Of a stretch of 64,000 nt of DNA, positions 1,106 through 15,100 are shown in pieces. The notes under the pieces are model-generated. The model saw nothing but the letters and a program-made list of their open reading frames with translations. It ran no database searches and had not been told where the DNA came from. Numbering within the stretch: position 1 is the stretch's first letter; each line of letters begins with the position of its first letter. The translations under genes and the position numbers were made by a program. The stretch lies in IMG/VR virus record IMGVR_UViG_3300030098_004420, positions 1-64,000 of that record; one strand, 5' to 3'. Source of the DNA: a virus.

Positions 1106-1287
1106 TGACTAAAGAATATATTAAAGATATTCCTAATTGGGAAAAGGATTATCTTGAGTCTATGAAGGGTAATTTATCCGAACAGCAGATAGAACTTCTT
1201 CAGGGTAGATATATAAAATCTGATGAAGGAATGATTTACGGGGAAATGTATGCTGATTGGAAAAGGAGAGCATGGGATATTGAATAA
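1105..1287 (+). CDS. Small conserved-type cyanophage protein, function unknown
   Basis: A 60-residue acidic protein whose start overlaps the ho1 stop by one base. It has the pattern NWEKDYLES...GEMYADWKR. A similar pattern (NWREEYKS...ALYNEWKK) occurs in the 82-residue protein at 1814-2062, so the two look like distant paralogues. No membrane segment or known motif is visible. Translational coupling to ho1 is likely from the TAATG junction. A late-promoter-like box for the next gene lies inside its last codons. Confidence 0.7.
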   Translation: MTKEYIKDIPNWEKDYLESMKGNLSEQQIELLQGRYIKSDEGMIYGEMYADWKRRAWDIE

Positions 1288-1290
1288 ATA
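1283..1290 (+). promoter_or_regulatory. T4-type late promoter (AATAAATA)
   Basis: AATAAATA matches the NATAAATA late-promoter box used with gp55/gp33-type late transcription in T4-like phages. It lies 21 bp upstream of the ATG of the basic protein at 1312, which suggests that this gene is expressed late, as a virion component would be. Confidence 0.5.
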
Positions 1291-1311
1291 CTTGAAAAAC
1301 TGTCACATACA

Positions 1312-1824
1312 ATGAAGACATATCAGAATTTTATGCTAGAATGTTCTCAAATAGATGAGAGTAGTTTAAGCCGTATTAAGTCAAAACATGATAAAGGAGG
1401 AGTGGCAGTCCTTTCTGGAAGTCGTGGTGATAAATCTAATAAGGAAAATAGGGCAAGAGCAAAGAGTTTAGATAAAGATATTCGTAGTAAGTTTGGTAAG
1501 GGTGCTACTAAAGTTACTGGTAAGTATACCGAGAAGGATGATAATACTGGTAAAGAAACAAGAGTGAAAGAAAGAAGTCATGTAGTTACTTCTGGTAAGA
1601 TGGGTAAGAAGAAGTTTAAGAAAGAGGTTAAGAAACTAGGTAAGAAGTACGGACAGGATTCTGTCATTACACAAACTAAACCAGGAGGAAAAGCAACTCT
1701 TAAAAGAACTAGAAAGGGTGGATTACCCAAAAAGAATATTAAACTAGGCAAATTTAAACCACAAGGAAAAAATCCTGAAGGTGAAACACAAGTTAAAGGA
1801 AAAACCTACACGTATGACAACTAA
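1312..1824 (+). CDS. Basic protein with T4-type capsid-targeting N-terminus; candidate internal head protein
   Basis: A 170-residue protein rich in Lys, Gly and Arg, with long basic stretches (for example GKMGKKKFKKEVKKLGKKYG). Its first ten residues, MKTYQNFMLE, match the T4 capsid-targeting sequence of internal proteins IPI-III (MKTYQEFIAE) at 7 of 10 positions, including the terminal Glu after which the T4 prohead protease gp21 cuts. In T4 this peptide sends proteins into the prohead core; after cleavage they are packaged with the DNA and injected. The strong basic charge would suit DNA contact inside the head. A late-promoter box lies just upstream. Residue -3 of the predicted cut site is Met rather than the usual Leu/Ile. 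The role is an inference. Confidence 0.7.
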   Translation: MKTYQNFMLECSQIDESSLSRIKSKHDKGGVAVLSGSRGDKSNKENRARAKSLDKDIRSKFGKGATKVTGKYTEKDDNTGKETRVKERSHVVTSGKMGKKKFKKEVKKLGKKYGQDSVITQTKPGGKATLKRTRKGGLPKKNIKLGKFKPQGKNPEGETQVKGKTYTYDN

Positions 1825-5840: not shown

Positions 5841-8800
5841 GTGGCAGCATCACAACAACAAAAAGTAGACTTTCTATTAAAGAAGATTGGTTATACCGCA
5901 TCCAAGACTGGACTTGCGGAAGATTCTAGTTTAAGTGGAACTAAGAAGGCTCCTTTTGCTGAAGCCGTTCCATCTCCATTAGTCATTGCAAGTACGTGTT
6001 TATGGGCAGATAGTACATATATTCCAGCGACTCCTCCTGGATCTGATAGTGATTATGTAAAGGTATATCTTAGTGCTGCTTCTGGTCATAGAATGACTGT
6101 TGACAGTACAGTTTCTGGTAATCGTGCTTATATTGCTTACTCAACTTATAATGATAATGGTACTGCAATCTTAGGTGACTGGATTGATACTCAATTTGGT
6201 GCTAGTTATATTATAAAAGTATATAAAGGTGATCCAAACTCTGGTGGTGTTCAATTATCTGCTGCTGGTTCTGGTTCTAATGATGGATGGTTCTTTGATT
6301 ATTCTGCTGGTATTCTAAACTTTAATGATACCAATGTTCCTAGTGGAGTAACAGATAGTAATATCTACGTTGTTGGTTACAGATATATTGGTACAAAGGG
6401 ACCAACTGCTGCTGGTGGTATTAGTACATTTACAACTCAATATGTATCAGGTGTTTCTACATTTGCTGATGATGTAAATCTATATGGTACTACTGGTGTA
6501 ACATCTGCATACTGGGATAAGACTGGAGATGCAGTTATACTTAAGGATCATACTAAAGCTTCATTTGGTACTGGTCAGGACTTAGAATTCTTTCATGATG
6601 GTGCAAACAGCACGATTAAAAATACTACTGGAACACTTTTTGTTGACAATGGTGGAACAACTTTTAGAAATGTAAGTGGTACTGAAACACAACTTGCTAT
6701 TAGTGATAATGGTTCAGTTGCTGCATACTTTGATAACGCCAAAAAGATAGAAACTCTTTCGGTTGGTGCTACAGTTACGGGCAACTTAGGAGCTACTTCT
6801 GTTAGTATATCTGGTATCTCTACATTTGAAGGTAATGTAGATGCTAATGGAACTTTAGATGTAGATGGTCAAAGTGAATTAGATGATGTTAATGTATCTG
6901 GTGTATCAACATTTGGTCAATTAGTTTCTGCTAGTGCTGGAGCAAATATTGCTGGTGCTGCTGGATTAAACGTTGCTGGAGTAACAACAGTTGGTGGGCA
7001 GATAGATGGTAATGCTGGAGCAGATATTTCTGGTGGAGAAACAACTTTAAGTTCTGCTACTATATCAGATCTAACTTCAGGGAGACTTACTGTTGCTGGT
7101 ACTAGTGGTGCTTTACAAGATAGTTCTAACTTAACATTTGATGGTACTAATAAATTAGCTGTAACTGGTGGACTAACTGTTTCTGCTGGTGCTACTCTTA
7201 GTTCTAATTTAGATGTGGATGGTGGAGCAGATATTTCTGGTGGTGGTGGAACAACACTTAACGTAGTAGGTCATACTGAATTAGACAGAGTTAATGTAAG
7301 TGCTGCATCTACTTTCGGTGGAGATATAGATGCGAATGGTAATATAGATGTAGATGGTCGTGCTGATTTAGATGACGTAGTTGTTACTGGTGTAGCAACA
7401 TTCTCTAATAATATTGATGCTGATGGTAATTTAGATGTAGATGGTCGTACTGATTTAGATGATGTAGTTGTTACTGGTGTAGCAACATTTTCTGCTTTAG
7501 TTGATGGTAATGCTGGTGCAAACTTCTCAGGTGCTGAAACAACTTTAAGTTCTGCTACTGTATCTGATTTAACAGATAATAGAATTGTACTTGCTGGTAC
7601 TTCTGGGTCATTAGAAGATAGTAGTAAGATAACTTTTGACGGAACAACTCTTGCTATAGTTGGAGATGCTACCTTCACAGGAAACGTATCTGTCGCAGGA
7701 ACATTAACCAGTGAAGATAAGGAAAATATAGATTCAGTTGGATTAATAACTGCAAGAACTGGTGTAAGAATTACTTCTGGTGGTCTTACTGTAAATTCTG
7801 GTGTTAGTACATTTACTGATGCTATTGATGCTAATGGTGGTTTAGATGTCGCTGGTGGTTCTGGTTTAGTCGCTTCTTCTGCTAAGATTTCTGACTTAAC
7901 TTCGGGAAGAGTTGTAGTCGCTGGTACTTCTGGAGAACTAGAAGATGCATCTACGTTCACTTTTAGTGGAGGAACTGTATCTGCTACTGCGTTCTCTGGT
8001 ACAAATCTAACAGGAACACTACAAACTGCTGCACAACCAAATATAACTTCATTAGGAACGATTGCATCTTTAGTCGCTTCAAGATCACAGGTTACTGGTG
8101 TTGGTGGATTTAGTGTAACTGGTGTTTCGACTTTCACTGGTGACATAGATGCGAATGGTAATATAGATGTAGATGGTCGTGCCGATTTAGATGACGTAGT
8201 TGTTACTGGTGTTGCTACATTCTCTAATAATATTGACGCTGACGGAGATTTAGATGTAGATGGTCATACTGAACTTGATTATGTAAATGTATCTGCTGCT
8301 GCTACCTTTGCTGGTTTCATTGATGCTAATGCTGGTGCTAATGTCGCTGGTGGATTTGTTGCTAACAGTGCTAAAATTTCTGACTTAACTTCAGGAAGAG
8401 TCCCAGTTGTTGGTACTGATGGAGAACTAGAAGACGCATCCACCTTTACATTTAGTGGAGGAACTGTTACTGCTACTGGGTTCTCTGGTAATTTAACAGG
8501 AACATTACAGACTGCTGCTCAAGGTAATGTTACATCAGTTGGAACTCTAACTGGATTGGATGTCAATGGTCATACAGAATTAGATAACATACAGGTAACT
8601 GGTATAGCAACAGTCGCTAATGTAGTTCTTACTAAAAACACCACAGGTGTTGGTGCTACGATTGGTGGATTAAATGTTGGTGTTGTTACTTACTATGGTG
8701 ATGGATCACAACTTACAGGTATAGATGCTACTGCATTAAAAGATAGTGGTGGTAACGTAAAGGTACAAGCAGTTACTACTGGTGCAGTTGTTACTGGTCT

Positions 8801-11510
8801 TATTACTGCTACTCAAGGATTCTCTGGAGAAATTACTGGTGTAGGTGCTACGTTCACTAACATTACTGGTACATTACAGACTGCTGCTCAAACAAACATC
8901 ACATCACTTGGAACTCTAACTGCATTAACAGTAACTGGTAATGTAGATGCTAATGCTGGATTAGATGTTACTGGTGTTGGTGGATTAAGTGTAACTGGTG
9001 TTTCAACATTTACTGGTGCTGTTGATGCGAATGGTGGTGTTGATATATCAGGTGGAGCAAACACTTTAAATGTTACAGGTCATACAGAATTAGATAATTT
9101 AAATGTATCTGGTATAGCAACGATAGCAAATGTAGTTCTTACAAAGAATACTACAGGTGTTGGTGCTACTGTTGGTGGTCAAAATGTTGGTGTCGTTACT
9201 TACTATGGTGACGGTTCAAAACTTACAGGTACTGGTTCAGACTCTGGTGGTACTCAAAGAGTAGAAGTAGTTAATACTGGTGTGATTCTTGTTGGTGTTA
9301 TAACTGCCACAGATCAATTCAGTGGACAGATTACTGGTGTAGGTGCTACGTTCACTAACATTACTGGTACATTAGTGACTGGTGCTCAAACTAATATTAC
9401 ATCACTTGGAAATCTAACTGGATTGACTATAAATGGTGATGAAGAATTTTATGGTTCTGCTGGTGTTACATCTGCTATCTGGGATAAGTCAGAAAATACT
9501 TTAAACTTTAAGGATCATACTAAAGCTACCTTCGGAACTGGAAATGATATAAGCATATATCATGATGGTGCAAATTCATATGTAGATAACGCTACGGGTG
9601 ATTTCTTCATTAGAAACAATTCTAATGCAATAAAAATTCGACCAAAAAATGATGAAGAATCTATAGTAGCTCATGAAAATGGATCTGTACAGCTCTTTTT
9701 TGATAATTCACAAAAATTTGAGACGACTTATACGGGAACGGTAACGACTGGTATTGGTACTTTTAGTGGTGGAGTTAAAATCGCTGATGATAAATCATTA
9801 ACTGTAGGTAATGACGATAATTTATACATCAAACATAGTGATGGTCACGGTAAGAATTTCTTCGTTTCATCTGTTGGTGACTGTGAATTCCATATGGCTG
9901 GTTCTGAAAAAGCCATGGAATTTAAGACGAATGGTTCAGTAGACATCTACTATAATGCGTCCAAAAAATTCGAGACGACTCATACGGGAGCGATTGTAAC
10001 TGGTATTGCTACTGCTACTACTTTTAGTGTAGGTGATGGTTCTCATAGTACTGATAGAATATCTATTGGCGATGATAATGATTTCGCTTTGTATCATAAT
10101 GGCTCAAATTCGTTTGTTGTAGATCGTGGAACTGGTCCACTGTATATAAGAGGTAATAACGCAGTTCGTATTGAGAGTTATACGAATGACGCTGCTGGCG
10201 AAGCAATGATTATTGCTAATTCTGACGGAGCCGTTGAAGCATACTATGATGCGTCCAAAAAATTCGAGACGACCTATCATGGAGCGATTGTAACTGGAAT
10301 ACTAACTGCTACTAGTGATATTAAGACTACTGCTAACATATATGGTGCTCAAGGACATTTTACCGATCACATATACATTGCAGATAAGATAGTTCATACT
10401 GGAGATACAAATACTGCAATAAGATTCCCTACTAATGATACATTCACAGTAGAAACTGCTGGTTCAGAAAGACTTCGCATCACATCAGCAGGTAATGTCG
10501 GTATCGGAACTGATGCTCCAACTAATTTTAATGCTGCTGCTGATAATTTAGTTGTTGGTGGTGGAGCTGGACATCATGGAATGACTATATGGTCAGCTGC
10601 TGATGGAGATGGTTGGTTAGTCTTTAATGATGCAGTTAACACTAATTTAACTGGAGCAGTTCAATATAACCATGTTAGTGATTACATGGCCTTTAGAACA
10701 GCTACTACTGAAAGACTTCAGATCACAAGTAATGGTAGAGTATTAATTGGAACAGGTGCAGTTGGTGCATCTAGTAATCTTGTAGCACAAGGTGGTTTAC
10801 AAGTTAGTGCAAATGGTGCTTCTGGTGCTCCTTCTCTTTGCATAGGTGCTGATGGTACAGGAGCTAATACTCAATCCTTAACTGATGATACAGTGAAGGA
10901 CTGTAGAATTGGTTATCCTAACTATGATATAGATGAAGAACCACTTGCATTAATATCTGGATTTGTTGGAGATGGTTCTTCATTAGATGACAATGACGGT
11001 GCAAGGATCTATATTGGTGGTGGAACTAGTTACTTGAATGCAGTTAATCAGGTTAGATTCTATACACAAAATACAAATATCGCCACTGTAACTGGTACAG
11101 AAAGATTTCGCATTGGACCCGATGGTACAGCAGACTTTAATTCTAATACAGTTCAAAAGGCAGTACTAAAGAACTATACAGAAACTGTTAAGGCTGTTGG
11201 TAATACAGGTACATCTGCAACTCTTGACTTAGCAGATGGTAACGTCTTCACTGCCACACTAAATGGTAACTGTACATTTACATTTACTACTGGTACGAAC
11301 TCAGCTCCTAATGCTGCATCATTTACTTTAATACTAGCGAATGATAGTACACCAAGTAGAACCATTACTTGGCCTGCAGCAGTTAAGTGGCCTAACAACA
11401 GTGCTCCTTCCAGAACTACTGCTGCAAGTAAGACTGACATTTGGACATTCATGACTCCTGACAATGGCACTACATGGTATGGTAATATAGCCCTATATAA
11501 CTTTACATAG
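5841..11510 (+). CDS. Giant tail fibre / virion structural protein, 1889 aa
   Basis: A GTG start with a good Shine-Dalgarno (AGGAGAGG) 10 bp upstream; GTG-GCA is a recurring start in this genome. Residues 1-195 form a conserved-looking head domain (KVDFLLKKIGYT, PSPLVIASTCLWADS). The shaft of about 1400 residues is built of repeats: GVSTF/GVATF, DANG-DVDG, SDLTSGRV, ITGTLQTAAQ.NITSLG, YYGDGS.LTG, and four WDK- or SKKFET-type modules. The last 110 residues (VFTATLNGNCTFTF, TWPAAVKWP, TWYGNIALY) are the tip domain seen in many marine phage fibres. Direct DNA repeats inside the gene (7326-7424 and 8145-8243) and a 53-bp patch shared with the fibre at 60855 suggest recombination. Confidence 0.85.
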   Translation: MAASQQQKVDFLLKKIGYTASKTGLAEDSSLSGTKKAPFAEAVPSPLVIASTCLWADSTYIPATPPGSDSDYVKVYLSAASGHRMTVDSTVSGNRAYIAYSTYNDNGTAILGDWIDTQFGASYIIKVYKGDPNSGGVQLSAAGSGSNDGWFFDYSAGILNFNDTNVPSGVTDSNIYVVGYRYIGTKGPTAAGGISTFTTQYVSGVSTFADDVNLYGTTGVTSAYWDKTGDAVILKDHTKASFGTGQDLEFFHDGANSTIKNTTGTLFVDNGGTTFRNVSGTETQLAISDNGSVAAYFDNAKKIETLSVGATVTGNLGATSVSISGISTFEGNVDANGTLDVDGQSELDDVNVSGVSTFGQLVSASAGANIAGAAGLNVAGVTTVGGQIDGNAGADISGGETTLSSATISDLTSGRLTVAGTSGALQDSSNLTFDGTNKLAVTGGLTVSAGATLSSNLDVDGGADISGGGGTTLNVVGHTELDRVNVSAASTFGGDIDANGNIDVDGRADLDDVVVTGVATFSNNIDADGNLDVDGRTDLDDVVVTGVATFSALVDGNAGANFSGAETTLSSATVSDLTDNRIVLAGTSGSLEDSSKITFDGTTLAIVGDATFTGNVSVAGTLTSEDKENIDSVGLITARTGVRITSGGLTVNSGVSTFTDAIDANGGLDVAGGSGLVASSAKISDLTSGRVVVAGTSGELEDASTFTFSGGTVSATAFSGTNLTGTLQTAAQPNITSLGTIASLVASRSQVTGVGGFSVTGVSTFTGDIDANGNIDVDGRADLDDVVVTGVATFSNNIDADGDLDVDGHTELDYVNVSAAATFAGFIDANAGANVAGGFVANSAKISDLTSGRVPVVGTDGELEDASTFTFSGGTVTATGFSGNLTGTLQTAAQGNVTSVGTLTGLDVNGHTELDNIQVTGIATVANVVLTKNTTGVGATIGGLNVGVVTYYGDGSQLTGIDATALKDSGGNVKVQAVTTGAVVTGLITATQGFSGEITGVGATFTNITGTLQTAAQTNITSLGTLTALTVTGNVDANAGLDVTGVGGLSVTGVSTFTGAVDANGGVDISGGANTLNVTGHTELDNLNVSGIATIANVVLTKNTTGVGATVGGQNVGVVTYYGDGSKLTGTGSDSGGTQRVEVVNTGVILVGVITATDQFSGQITGVGATFTNITGTLVTGAQTNITSLGNLTGLTINGDEEFYGSAGVTSAIWDKSENTLNFKDHTKATFGTGNDISIYHDGANSYVDNATGDFFIRNNSNAIKIRPKNDEESIVAHENGSVQLFFDNSQKFETTYTGTVTTGIGTFSGGVKIADDKSLTVGNDDNLYIKHSDGHGKNFFVSSVGDCEFHMAGSEKAMEFKTNGSVDIYYNASKKFETTHTGAIVTGIATATTFSVGDGSHSTDRISIGDDNDFALYHNGSNSFVVDRGTGPLYIRGNNAVRIESYTNDAAGEAMIIANSDGAVEAYYDASKKFETTYHGAIVTGILTATSDIKTTANIYGAQGHFTDHIYIADKIVHTGDTNTAIRFPTNDTFTVETAGSERLRITSAGNVGIGTDAPTNFNAAADNLVVGGGAGHHGMTIWSAADGDGWLVFNDAVNTNLTGAVQYNHVSDYMAFRTATTERLQITSNGRVLIGTGAVGASSNLVAQGGLQVSANGASGAPSLCIGADGTGANTQSLTDDTVKDCRIGYPNYDIDEEPLALISGFVGDGSSLDDNDGARIYIGGGTSYLNAVNQVRFYTQNTNIATVTGTERFRIGPDGTADFNSNTVQKAVLKNYTETVKAVGNTGTSATLDLADGNVFTATLNGNCTFTFTTGTNSAPNAASFTLILANDSTPSRTITWPAAVKWPNNSAPSRTTAASKTDIWTFMTPDNGTTWYGNIALYNFT
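7143..7195 (+). repeat. 53-bp segment identical to 61644-61696 in another fibre gene
   Basis: These 53 bases are identical to 61644-61696 in the fibre gene 54 kb downstream, and sit within a longer similar stretch (about 7005-7195 against 61505-61696). Both copies encode the shaft segment LAVTGGLTVSAGAT. This indicates recent exchange or duplication between fibre genes. Confidence 0.85.
7326..7424 (+). repeat. Near-identical 99-bp direct repeat within a fibre gene (copy 2 at 8145-8243)
   Basis: The two copies are 819 bp (273 codons) apart, in frame, and differ at only a few, mostly synonymous, bases. They encode the DANGNIDVDGRADLDDVV module. Recombination between them would delete 273 residues of the shaft without breaking the frame. 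Confidence 0.8.
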
Positions 11511-11535
11511 TAAAATTTATTAATCTTTTATTATT

Positions 11536-12153
11536 ATGACTGAACTACAACATTCTCCTGGAAAGTGCCAATATAATCAGTTTATTGGCATTTATGAAAA
11601 TGTATTTCCCGATGGTTATTGTAACCATCTAGTTACTGAAATGGAGAGTCTTTTAGCAACAGGAGCTGGTTATGATAGACAATCTACTGAAGGTGTTACT
11701 AAAACAGTAAAACAGGATGAATATGTTTTCATTAATATGAAAATTCATAATCCTAATCCATTTAATGGTGAGATGTGTCAGAAGATTTTTTGGGATGGTC
11801 TCCAACATTGTTTTGATCGATATTGTAGGGAGTATGATATTTTAAAAGATATGCCTCTTAAGGCTACTACTCTTAAATTACAGAAGACTGTTCCTGGTGG
11901 AGGATATCATGTTTGGCATTGTGAGCAGGGAACAGAAGATGGTGCTAACAGAGTTGCTGTTTACAGTTTGTATTTAAATACAATTGAAGAAGCAGGAGAA
12001 ACCGAATTCTTATATCAAAAATTGAGACTACCTGCAAAAGAAAACACAATGGTTATTTGGCCTGCTGGTTACACTCATCCTCATCGTGGAAATGCTGTGT
12101 ATGGTGACAAGGCAAAATATATTCTAACAGGATGGTTTTATGTTGATTATTGA
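11536..12153 (+). CDS. 2-oxoglutarate/Fe(II) oxygenase (prolyl-hydroxylase type)
   Basis: A 205-residue double-stranded beta-helix oxygenase. Likely iron ligands are His128 and Glu130 in VWHCE (an HxE variant of HxD) and a distal His in GYTHPHRGN (181 or 183). The 2-oxoglutarate anchor would be Lys194 in KAKYILTGWFYV. Such enzymes hydroxylate Pro, Lys, Asn or other side chains while turning 2-oxoglutarate into succinate and CO2. The next gene, 40 bp on, encodes a Gly-Asn-Pro collagen-like protein whose prolines lie in the Y position, so prolyl hydroxylation of that fibre is a natural hypothesis. Substrate and activity are inferred, not shown. Confidence 0.85.
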   Translation: MTELQHSPGKCQYNQFIGIYENVFPDGYCNHLVTEMESLLATGAGYDRQSTEGVTKTVKQDEYVFINMKIHNPNPFNGEMCQKIFWDGLQHCFDRYCREYDILKDMPLKATTLKLQKTVPGGGYHVWHCEQGTEDGANRVAVYSLYLNTIEEAGETEFLYQKLRLPAKENTMVIWPAGYTHPHRGNAVYGDKAKYILTGWFYVDY

Positions 12154-12161
12154 TTCTTAAT

Positions 12162-12169
12162 TATAAATA
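12162..12169 (+). promoter_or_regulatory. T4-type late promoter TATAAATA
   Basis: A perfect TATAAATA lies 24 bp upstream of the start of the collagen-like fibre at 12194. Confidence 0.65.
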
Positions 12170-12193
12170 AACTTATAGGAAAATAATAGAAAA

Positions 12194-15100
12194 ATGGCAA
12201 TAGGAACCAAAAAAGTATTAGCTCCTGGATTTATGGAACCTGCGGATTCCGTAACCTTTAATAATCCAGGTACTTTTGTTGCTCCTATGAGACTAAGGAA
12301 CCTTACTGTAACAGGTAGAGGTGGTAGTGGTAATCCAGGTAATGCAGGAAATGGTGGTAATGGTGGTACTGCAGGATCTGCTGGTAACTCAGGTAATCCA
12401 GGAACAGCAGGTAGTGGAGGTTCAGCAGGAAACCCAGGTGGTGATGGTAATGTAGGTACTGGTGGTAATGCAAACCCAGGTAATGCAGGTAATAATGGTG
12501 CTGCAGGAACAGCAGGTAACTCAGGTAACCCAGGAACAAAAGGTAATGGTGGTAGTGCAGGAAACCCAGGTAATGATGGTAATGTAGGTAGTGGTGGCAC
12601 CAAAGGTAATGCAGGAAACCCAGGTAATGCTGGAACTGCTGGTAACGGAGGAACAGCAGGAAACCCAGGTAATCCAGGTAATAATGGTGCTGCAGGAACA
12701 GCAGGTAATGCAGGTAATTCTGGAACTGGTGGTAACGGAGGTTCAGCAGGTAACCCAGGTAACTCAGGAACTGGTGGTCCTGGTGGAACAGCAGGAAACC
12801 CAGGTAACTCAGGAACTAATGGTGGTGCAGGAAACCCAGGAAATTCAGGAAACCCAGGAGGAAGTGGTAACGGTGGTCCTGGTGGTAATGCAGGTAATCC
12901 TGGTAATCCTGGCGGAACAGGTAATTCAGGAAACGCTGGAGGAGGAGGCGGCGGTGGTGGCGGTGGTGCCCAAGATTGGAACGTCGCTCCTATGCATCCA
13001 GGAAATCCAGGTAATGCTGGATCACCAAGTCCAGGTGGAGGACCAGGAGGTGCTGGAGGACCAGCTGCTGGACCTAACTTAGGACATACCGCTTCAGGAG
13101 GAAATGGTCAACCAGGAAATAGTGGAGGAGGTGGTTGGAACGGTAACCCAGGTAGTAATGGAAACCCAGGTCACGGACATAATAATGGTGGTAGTGGAAA
13201 TAGTGGACATAATGGTAACCCAGGTAACTCAGGTAATGCAGGGAATTATGGGTCTAATGGTAACCCAGGAACTGGTGGAGGAACAGGAGGTGGTGGTAGC
13301 TCAGGTAATCCAGGAACAGGAGCTACCAACGGTAATCCAGGAAGTCCAGGTAACCCAGGAACAGGAGCTAATCCAGGAACAAATGGTAACCCAGGTAATC
13401 CAGGAACAGGTGCCAATGAAGGTAACGCAGGATCAAGTGGTAACCCAGGATCAGGAGCTAATAACGGAAACCCAGGTAATTCAGGAGCAACAGGAAATCC
13501 AGGAACAGGTGCTACATCAGGAAACCCAGGAACAAATGGTACTGATGGATCTGGTGCTGGTAGTGGTGGTGCGGGTGCTGATGGTAATCCAGGAAATGCT
13601 AACCCAGGTAATGCAGGAAATCCAGGTACAGCAGGAACAGGTGCTACATCAGGAAATCCAGGCACAGCAGGAACAGCAGGAACAGGAGCTACATCAGGTA
13701 ACCCAGGTAATCCAGGAAATAATGGAAACCCAGGTAATGTAGGTAATCCATCATCAGTATTTGGATTAACATTCTCTGGTGGTAATGGTGGTACTGCTGG
13801 TAGTGGTAATCCAGGAACAGCAGGTAATCCAGGAAATAATGGTACTGGTGGTGCAGGTAATCCAGGTAACGCAGGAACCAATGGTACAGGTGGTACTGCA
13901 GGTAATCCAGGAAATGCTGGAACTGCTGGTACTGGTGGTAGTGCTGGTAACTCAGGTAATCCAGGAACATCAGGAACAAAAGGTAATGCTACTGGAGGTA
14001 ATCCAGGTAATAATGGTGCTGCAGGAACAGCAGGTAACCCAGGTAATGCAGGTAATCCAGGAACTAATGGAACAGGTGGTACTGGTAACCCAGGTAATGA
14101 TGGAAATAATGGTGCAGGTGGTACTGCAGGAACAGCAGGTAATCCAGGAAATAATGGTCCAGGTGGAACAGGTAATCCAGGTAATGCAGGAACCAATGGT
14201 ACAGGTGGTACTGGAAATCCAGGAAACTCTGGGGGTGCTGGTACTGGTGGTAGTGCTGGTAATAGAGGTACTGGAGGAAATGGTGGACCAAGAGGTAATG
14301 CAGGTAATCCTGGTGGATCAGGTAATCCAGGAGGAAGTGGATTTGGTGGCACTGGAGGACCAGGAGGAACTGGTGGTCCTGGCGGTGGAGGAGGCGGTGG
14401 AGGCGGCTCTACCGTAGGAGGATCATTTGGTGGATCTTCTGGACATTCTGCTGGTGGTGGATATAGTGGTGGTAATGGTGGTACCCAAGGTCCAGGTGGA
14501 TCTGGTGGTACTGGTGGTGGTGCTAACTCAGGATCTGGTGGTCATTCAGGATGGCATGCATCTAATGGTAATACAGGACCAAGTGGATCTGGACATAATA
14601 ATGGTGGTAGTGGTAACCCAGGCAGTCCAGGTACTGGAGCTACATCAGGTAACCCAGGACATGGTGGTAACCCAGGAAATGGTAACCCAGGTAATGCTGG
14701 TTCAGATGGTAATCCAGGAAGTGGTAACCCAGGTAACCCAGGATCTGCAGGAACAGCAGGAACTGGTGCTGGTTCAGGTAATGCAGGTGCTGATGGCAAT
14801 CCAGGAAATGCTAACCCAGGTAATGCTGGTTCTGATGGTAACAATGGTAACCCAGGAACAGGAGCAGGTGAAGGAGGAGCAGGAGCAAATGGTAATCCAG
14901 GAAACCAAAACCCAGGAAACTCAGGAGCAGCAGGTAATCCAGGAACAGGTGCTACATCAGGAAATCCAGGTAACTCAGGTAATCCAGGAACAGGAGCAGG
15001 TGAAGGGCAAGCAGGAGCAGATGGTAATCCAGGAAACCAAAGTAGTGGAGGTTCAGGATCTGCAGGAACAGCAGGTAATCCAGGAACAGGTAATCCAGGA

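Follow-up and report, generated by a model that had tools for sequence, protein, structure and literature searches.

We propose that the ORF located at positions 1312–1824 (+ strand) of the window, the whole 64 kb stretch of DNA analysed here, encodes a capsid-targeted SAM lyase that is made late in infection and injected into the next host, where it would probably deplete SAM at time zero. Packaging of this protein is well supported by sequence homology, and we infer its cleavage, injection, activity and purpose from the features described below. The window was taken from a record of 78,881 bases that corresponds to a fragment of a T4-type cyanophage genome.

The ORF starts with an ATG, without any in-frame start codon upstream, and encodes a protein of 170 aa and 18.9 kDa, with a pI of 10.2 (37 K and 9 R versus 9 D and 9 E). 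It is preceded by what we take to be the end of psbA, by a presumed heme-oxygenase-like ORF (389–1105) and by a 60-aa ORF. Its stop codon is overlapped by a small ORF (1814–2062, + strand), which is followed by an ORF that is presumably purC-like (2062–2760). The small ORF is of the PHROG 16908/869 type and appears to be a conserved neighbour, since such an ORF is located at most 300 nt downstream of the lyase gene in 76 of 121 distinct loci; it possibly encodes a partner or an inhibitor of the lyase. PADLOC gave no match, and NCBIfam gave none for the lyase protein.

The first ten residues of the protein, MKTYQNFMLE (1312–1341, + strand), resemble the capsid-targeting sequence (CTS) of T4, with 7/10 identical positions and with Y4 and F7 at the key positions. 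In T4, targeting depends on CTS residues 4 and 7 and processing on residues 8 and 10; the gp21 protease cuts after L/I-x-E, and the CTS-bearing internal proteins carry an N-terminal propeptide of 10–19 residues (PMC9026906). The probability of at least six matches to the T4 CTS among the nine non-Met positions, computed from the amino-acid composition of the window, is 8.6e-7 per protein, corresponding to about 5e-5 for 60 genes. The pattern [MVL][KR]x[FYL]xxF[LIMVF]xE, searched in the six frames of the 64 kb (ORFs of at least 40 codons), matches the lyase ORF only. To describe the conservation of this region, we use an alignment (A2) of 31 sequences picked by hand for diversity from the fetched loci. 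Among the A2 relatives with an aligned residue at the position considered, F or Y occupies CTS position 4 in 27/30 and position 7 in 26/29. More broadly, [FY]xx[FY] is present ahead of E16 in 125 of 134 distinct relatives, the nine others lacking an aromatic pair by the pattern used. The initial annotation had counted the same 7/10 identities and described the rest of the protein as very basic, in agreement with the composition given above. The capsid targeting that it proposed is well supported, considering the aromatic residues of the relatives and the presence of a homologue in purified virions of Synechococcus phage S-CREM2 (see below).

The remainder of the protein (residues 28–170; 1393–1821, + strand) is predicted to be an active SAM lyase with a PII-like ferredoxin fold. 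Residues 33–169 match the Pfam family PF23780 (S-AdoMet_lyase) with 64.4 bits for a cut-off of 28, as do all members of A2 (31/31), whereas DUF3293 (PF11697) remains below its cut-off on the window protein (16.3 versus 25 bits), and so do the profile matches to DUF3574 and PGA2. In the PDB, SAM lyases were recovered by fold comparison alone, a search by sequence having missed them. The AlphaFold2 model built from A2 (mean pLDDT 71.4, pTM 0.65) has the SAM lyase of phage T3 (8bb1_E) as its top Foldseek match in the PDB (E 1.2e-4). The VIA comparison of residues 28–170 of the model with this T3 structure gave a Z of 13.9 over 129 aligned residues (rmsd 2.9), followed by structures of Svi3-3 (Z 8.1 and 7.5) and then by the SAM-AMP lyase 9gad (Z 5.8). 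In Svi3-3, the residues involved in binding SAM and acting on it are G56, Y58, E69, Q104 and E105, and replacement of E69 by Q or A nearly abolishes activity (PMC7877911). Their equivalents in the window protein are G70 and Y72 in the stretch G70-K71-Y72 (1519–1527, + strand; conserved in 31/31 and 30/31 of the A2 sequences, respectively), E87 (1570–1572, + strand; 31/31), which also corresponds to Glu68 of the T3 enzyme, and Q115-D116 (1654–1659, + strand), with Q in 31/31 and D or E in 24 and 7 of the 31. The G, Y, E and Q are also found at the corresponding positions of the T3 protein when it is aligned to the window protein.

A T4-type late promoter box, AATAAATA, is located at positions 1283–1290 (+ strand), 21 nt ahead of the ATG, as had already been noticed in the initial annotation. 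The heptamer ATAAATA is present 14 times on the + strand of the window and once on the − strand. Half of the + strand boxes (7/14), including the one of the lyase gene, sit 17–28 nt upstream of a + strand ORF, as scored against a mechanical set of 56 ORFs (51 of them on the + strand). The six other genes correspond to baseplate-hub, hub/tail-lysozyme-like, tail-fibre and tail proteins, one protein of an unknown PHROG and one without PHROG. The total on the + strand is not enriched (14 observed versus about 21 expected by chance), and it is the strand bias and the spacing of ATAAATA that stand out, not its total count. In the relatives, [ACT]TAAATA is present between −60 and −10 in 78 of 130 distinct upstream contexts, versus 53 of 904 for the other ORFs of the same loci, a ratio that is not a probability since the 130 contexts share ancestry and are not independent.

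A link to virions comes from a homologue. A tblastn search with the window protein matched 26 phage records, with at least 80% of its length covered in 16. ORF6 of S-CREM2, a protein of 414 aa that starts with MKDFDSFLEE, exhibits 49% identity with the window protein over residues 1–169. This protein is one of the 52 detected in CsCl-purified virions of S-CREM2 (19 unique peptides, 26.3% coverage), and the authors suggested that it enters the host and shields phage DNA from restriction; they also indicated that regulatory proteins may be abundant contaminants co-purified in the CsCl preparation (PMC10665884). Three further non-structural proteins of S-CREM2 virions have similar starts: gp14 (VKRFDAFLTE), gp154 (MKNFSSFLTE) and gp13 (MKDLHSFLTE). 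The protein S-SZBM1_194, which also bears the lyase domain, is not among the 30 proteins detected in virions of S-SZBM1. A gp21-type protease (PF03420) and gp23 (PF07068) are encoded in 14 of the 20 records searched, including all of the named phages (8/8); they were not found in the six others, which are contigs of 43–79 kb including the 78.9-kb record of the window, itself a fragment.

A search of cyanophage proteomes for similar starts, recommended in the initial annotation, gave a divided outcome. The CTS pattern matches exactly four ORFs in S-CREM2, all of which have products in virions (52 of its 219 CDS are detected there), this pattern having been drawn post hoc from the S-CREM2 list itself. 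Applied to held-out proteomes, it was correct for 0/1 match in S-SZBM1 and for 1/2 in S-SCSM1, the correct one being an NMNAT. The pattern tried first, M[KR][ST][FY]xx[FYLIM], was stricter and had no match in S-CREM2. Consequently, we do not take it as established that the CTS motif predicts virion proteins in general. The two held-out misses correspond to one related small protein (S-SZBM1_191 and SSCSM1_30), which was not detected in the virion proteome of either phage. These proteins belong to a small family that is conserved and starts with a perfect CTS-like sequence, MK[ST]FKxF[LM]SESVNISGDFNGN, and their genes adjoin genes of virion proteins. In S-CREM2 (L090), the region 7704–13331 near the lyase gene encodes gp12–gp15, four proteins that are all present in virions: one annotated as Cas9-like, a small one, a kinase and another small one. 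The CTS-like starts are those of gp13 and gp14, and gp12 contains an internal LRFASFMAEA. This region resembles an island of effectors destined for packaging.

The initial annotation placed the start of the mature protein at Cys11, a position that the relatives do not favour. The bond E10|C11 follows M-L-E and is not conserved: in A2, where the length of the linker varies, most relatives lack E10 or show a gap there, so that we rejected cleavage after E10 as the main site. The only strict L/I-x-E of the window protein is I14-D15-E16|S17, and E16 is retained in 31/31 of the A2 relatives, where S-S-L-S-R or a variant thereof comes next. For these reasons, Ser17 is more likely than Cys11 to be the mature start. 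The proposed propeptide would consist of residues 1–16 (1312–1359, + strand), modelled by AlphaFold2 with pLDDT below 50, and the proposed mature N-terminus would be SSLSR (residues 17–21; 1360–1374, + strand), with R21 invariant in A2. Among the 134 distinct relatives, retrieved with a search pattern that itself demanded the conserved E, the residue two positions before it is L in 63, I in 46, M in 16, V in 7 and F in 2 (L/I in 109/134). Since E16 and R21 are conserved as strongly as the active site, SSLSR may be a structural element instead of a protease site.

According to the mechanism that we favour, the lyase would be made late, from the T4-type late box, bound by the prohead core via the aromatic CTS residues Y4 and F7, and trimmed by a prohead protease of the gp21 type, for which the most likely cut lies behind E16 (IDE|SSLSR). 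The basic mature enzyme of 17 kDa would remain with the packaged DNA and enter the next host alongside it. Its trimer would then reassemble and split SAM, with methylthioadenosine and homoserine lactone as products, at a time when no phage gene has yet been transcribed. SAM-dependent defences or methylation would thereby be disarmed at the very start of infection. Overexpression of Svi3-3 is highly toxic (PMC7877911). A SAM-destroying enzyme made late would hardly benefit the cell that produces it, a puzzle that packaging for the next cell would resolve.

The purpose of such an early removal of SAM is a distinct issue. SAM lyases are known to be used against restriction and BREX (PMC12255297). 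The anti-defence effector put forward in the initial annotation can now be specified as a predicted SAM lyase. Its anti-restriction purpose is weakened by the few restriction systems of Prochlorococcus, which may not be the host of the window phage: there are typically 0–1 of them per genome and many genomes have none (PMC8262939). An unknown SAM-dependent defence as its target, the shielding of phage DNA from host methylation and the control of host metabolism would be alternatives.

The protein could instead be an ordinary SAM lyase that is not packaged and is expressed in the infected cell, as in T3, and whose N-terminal extension contributes contacts within the fold or the trimer and whose likeness to the CTS is convergent or trivial. 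We regard this as unlikely, although the invariance of E16 and R21 goes beyond the needs of a mere tag, the extension is retained where the domain sits inside the longer S-SZBM1_194, and the CTS pattern was wrong in two of the three held-out cases. The T3 enzyme has no such extension, the disordered N-terminal tail of Svi3-3 is dispensable for activity (PMC7877911), and the very low model confidence of residues 1–16 is that of disordered tails; these observations argue against this explanation. Furthermore, the gene has a late box and not an early promoter, its homologue is present in S-CREM2 virions, and a similar start is found on unrelated virion proteins.

Two other explanations accept packaging and differ on what the packaged protein does. 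With its pI of 10.2 and its many lysines, which recall the T4 internal proteins (PMC9026906), it could be mainly a DNA-condensing or core protein, with a catalytic activity that is secondary or lost. A pure condenser would be expected to lose its active site, the residues of which are retained in 30–31 of the 31 relatives, down to 27% identity, making this explanation improbable. The true substrate of the packaged lyase could also be SAM-AMP, the messenger of type III CRISPR systems, in which case the protein would be an injected anti-CRISPR. SAM-AMP lyases have the same fold and the same pair of Glu and Gln (PMC12255297), and the VIA Z of 5.8 to 9gad is in line with this, but the T3 SAM lyase is far closer in fold (Z 13.9 versus 5.8), and we consider this substrate very improbable.

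The proposed packaged SAM lyase combines traits of two known groups of proteins. It resembles IPI, IPII, IPIII and Alt of T4 by the 7/10 identity of its start, the aromatic residues 4 and 7, the L/I-x-E before the mature part, its small size, its basic character and its late box, gp21 and gp23 being encoded in related phages. It differs from them by its proposed cleavage after residue 16 and not 10, and its cargo, a SAM lyase, is unrelated to IPI (an inhibitor protein) and Alt (an ADP-ribosyltransferase). The fold, the Pfam family (PF23780) and the Gly/Tyr/Glu/Gln/acidic active-site set are those of T3 gp0.3 and Svi3-3, from which the window protein is distinguished by its N-terminal extension of 27 residues, its CTS-like start, its late box and its occurrence in T4-type phages. 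With the SAM-AMP lyase, the candidate AcrIIIB4, it shares a PII-like fold and the catalytic Glu and Gln, with a weaker fold match (PMC12255297). A further known case is ORF6 of S-CREM2, annotated as 'SAM hydrolase', which is homologous and has a CTS-like start in common with the window protein, unlike which it carries a C-terminal extension; the available text on ORF6 gives no targeting signal or processing site (PMC10665884).

The T4 CTS proteins and the phage SAM lyases are already known, and a cyanophage SAM lyase borne by virions is in print (PMC10665884). What is new, as read from the sequences, is the CTS-like targeting, the shift proposed for the cleavage site, the distribution of the family and the modular fusions in which it takes part; in the open-licence literature, we found no paper that links cyanophages, or SAM lyases, to a capsid-targeting signal. 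The SAM lyase of T3 is the first viral protein expressed (PMC8406200). This enzyme requires transcription and translation after entry, leaving a gap open to SAM-dependent defences that a pre-loaded enzyme would close, and pre-loading would account for a gene of the counter-defence type behind a late box. The association of a CTS with L/I-x-E is suggested as a sequence lead to injected effectors in abundant ocean phages, whose internal proteins are nearly uncharted. Pre-loading also raises the question of the benefit of an early removal of SAM in Prochlorococcus, with 0–1 restriction systems per genome.

The lyase domain and the CTS-like start are both found in other protein contexts. In five loci (L068–L071 and L080), the SAM-lyase module is part of a longer ORF, with the start MKSF[SK]DF where the start is visible, and the C-terminal module of these ORFs resembles SSCSM1_29, a 'virion protein' (39% identity over 70 residues, E 5e-12). 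Of 78 loci, 58 ORFs with this C-terminal module were examined; it is preceded by a SAM lyase in 43 of them and not in the 15 others, two of which (L283 and L306) have a CTS-like start joined straight to it. S-SZBM1_194 (707 aa) has its SAM-lyase domain at the end, preceded by an internal ITYREFIAE|G, and its first 56 residues share 74% identity with SSCSM1_93, another 'virion protein', in an alignment of 57 columns. In L218 (from 3001) and L219 (from 535), a P-SSM2-like CTS start, MRTFQEFL (MRTFQEFLDICEE), is carried by an unrelated basic cargo. Both the lyase and the CTS-like start are thus seen again alongside other modules of virion type. We tentatively suggest that T4-type cyanophages and their relatives could use a modular system of head delivery, in which a short CTS and L/I-x-E|S junctions would allow the prohead protease to free, within the head, interchangeable cargo modules, such as the SAM lyase, an NMNAT/cytidylyltransferase, a kinase or the 'SYLRxQERG' module. 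The lyase, delivered together with the DNA, would then strip host SAM before transcription; where the host has few restriction systems, its role would lie in metabolic or epigenetic takeover, or against an unknown SAM-dependent defence, and not in anti-restriction. The last of these modules, of 74 residues and starting with E-S-Y-L-R-x-Q-E-R-G, is present in L283, L306 and L232–L308, where it follows CTS-like starts, a SAM lyase or other virion-type modules, the junction being mostly x-x-E|S-like.
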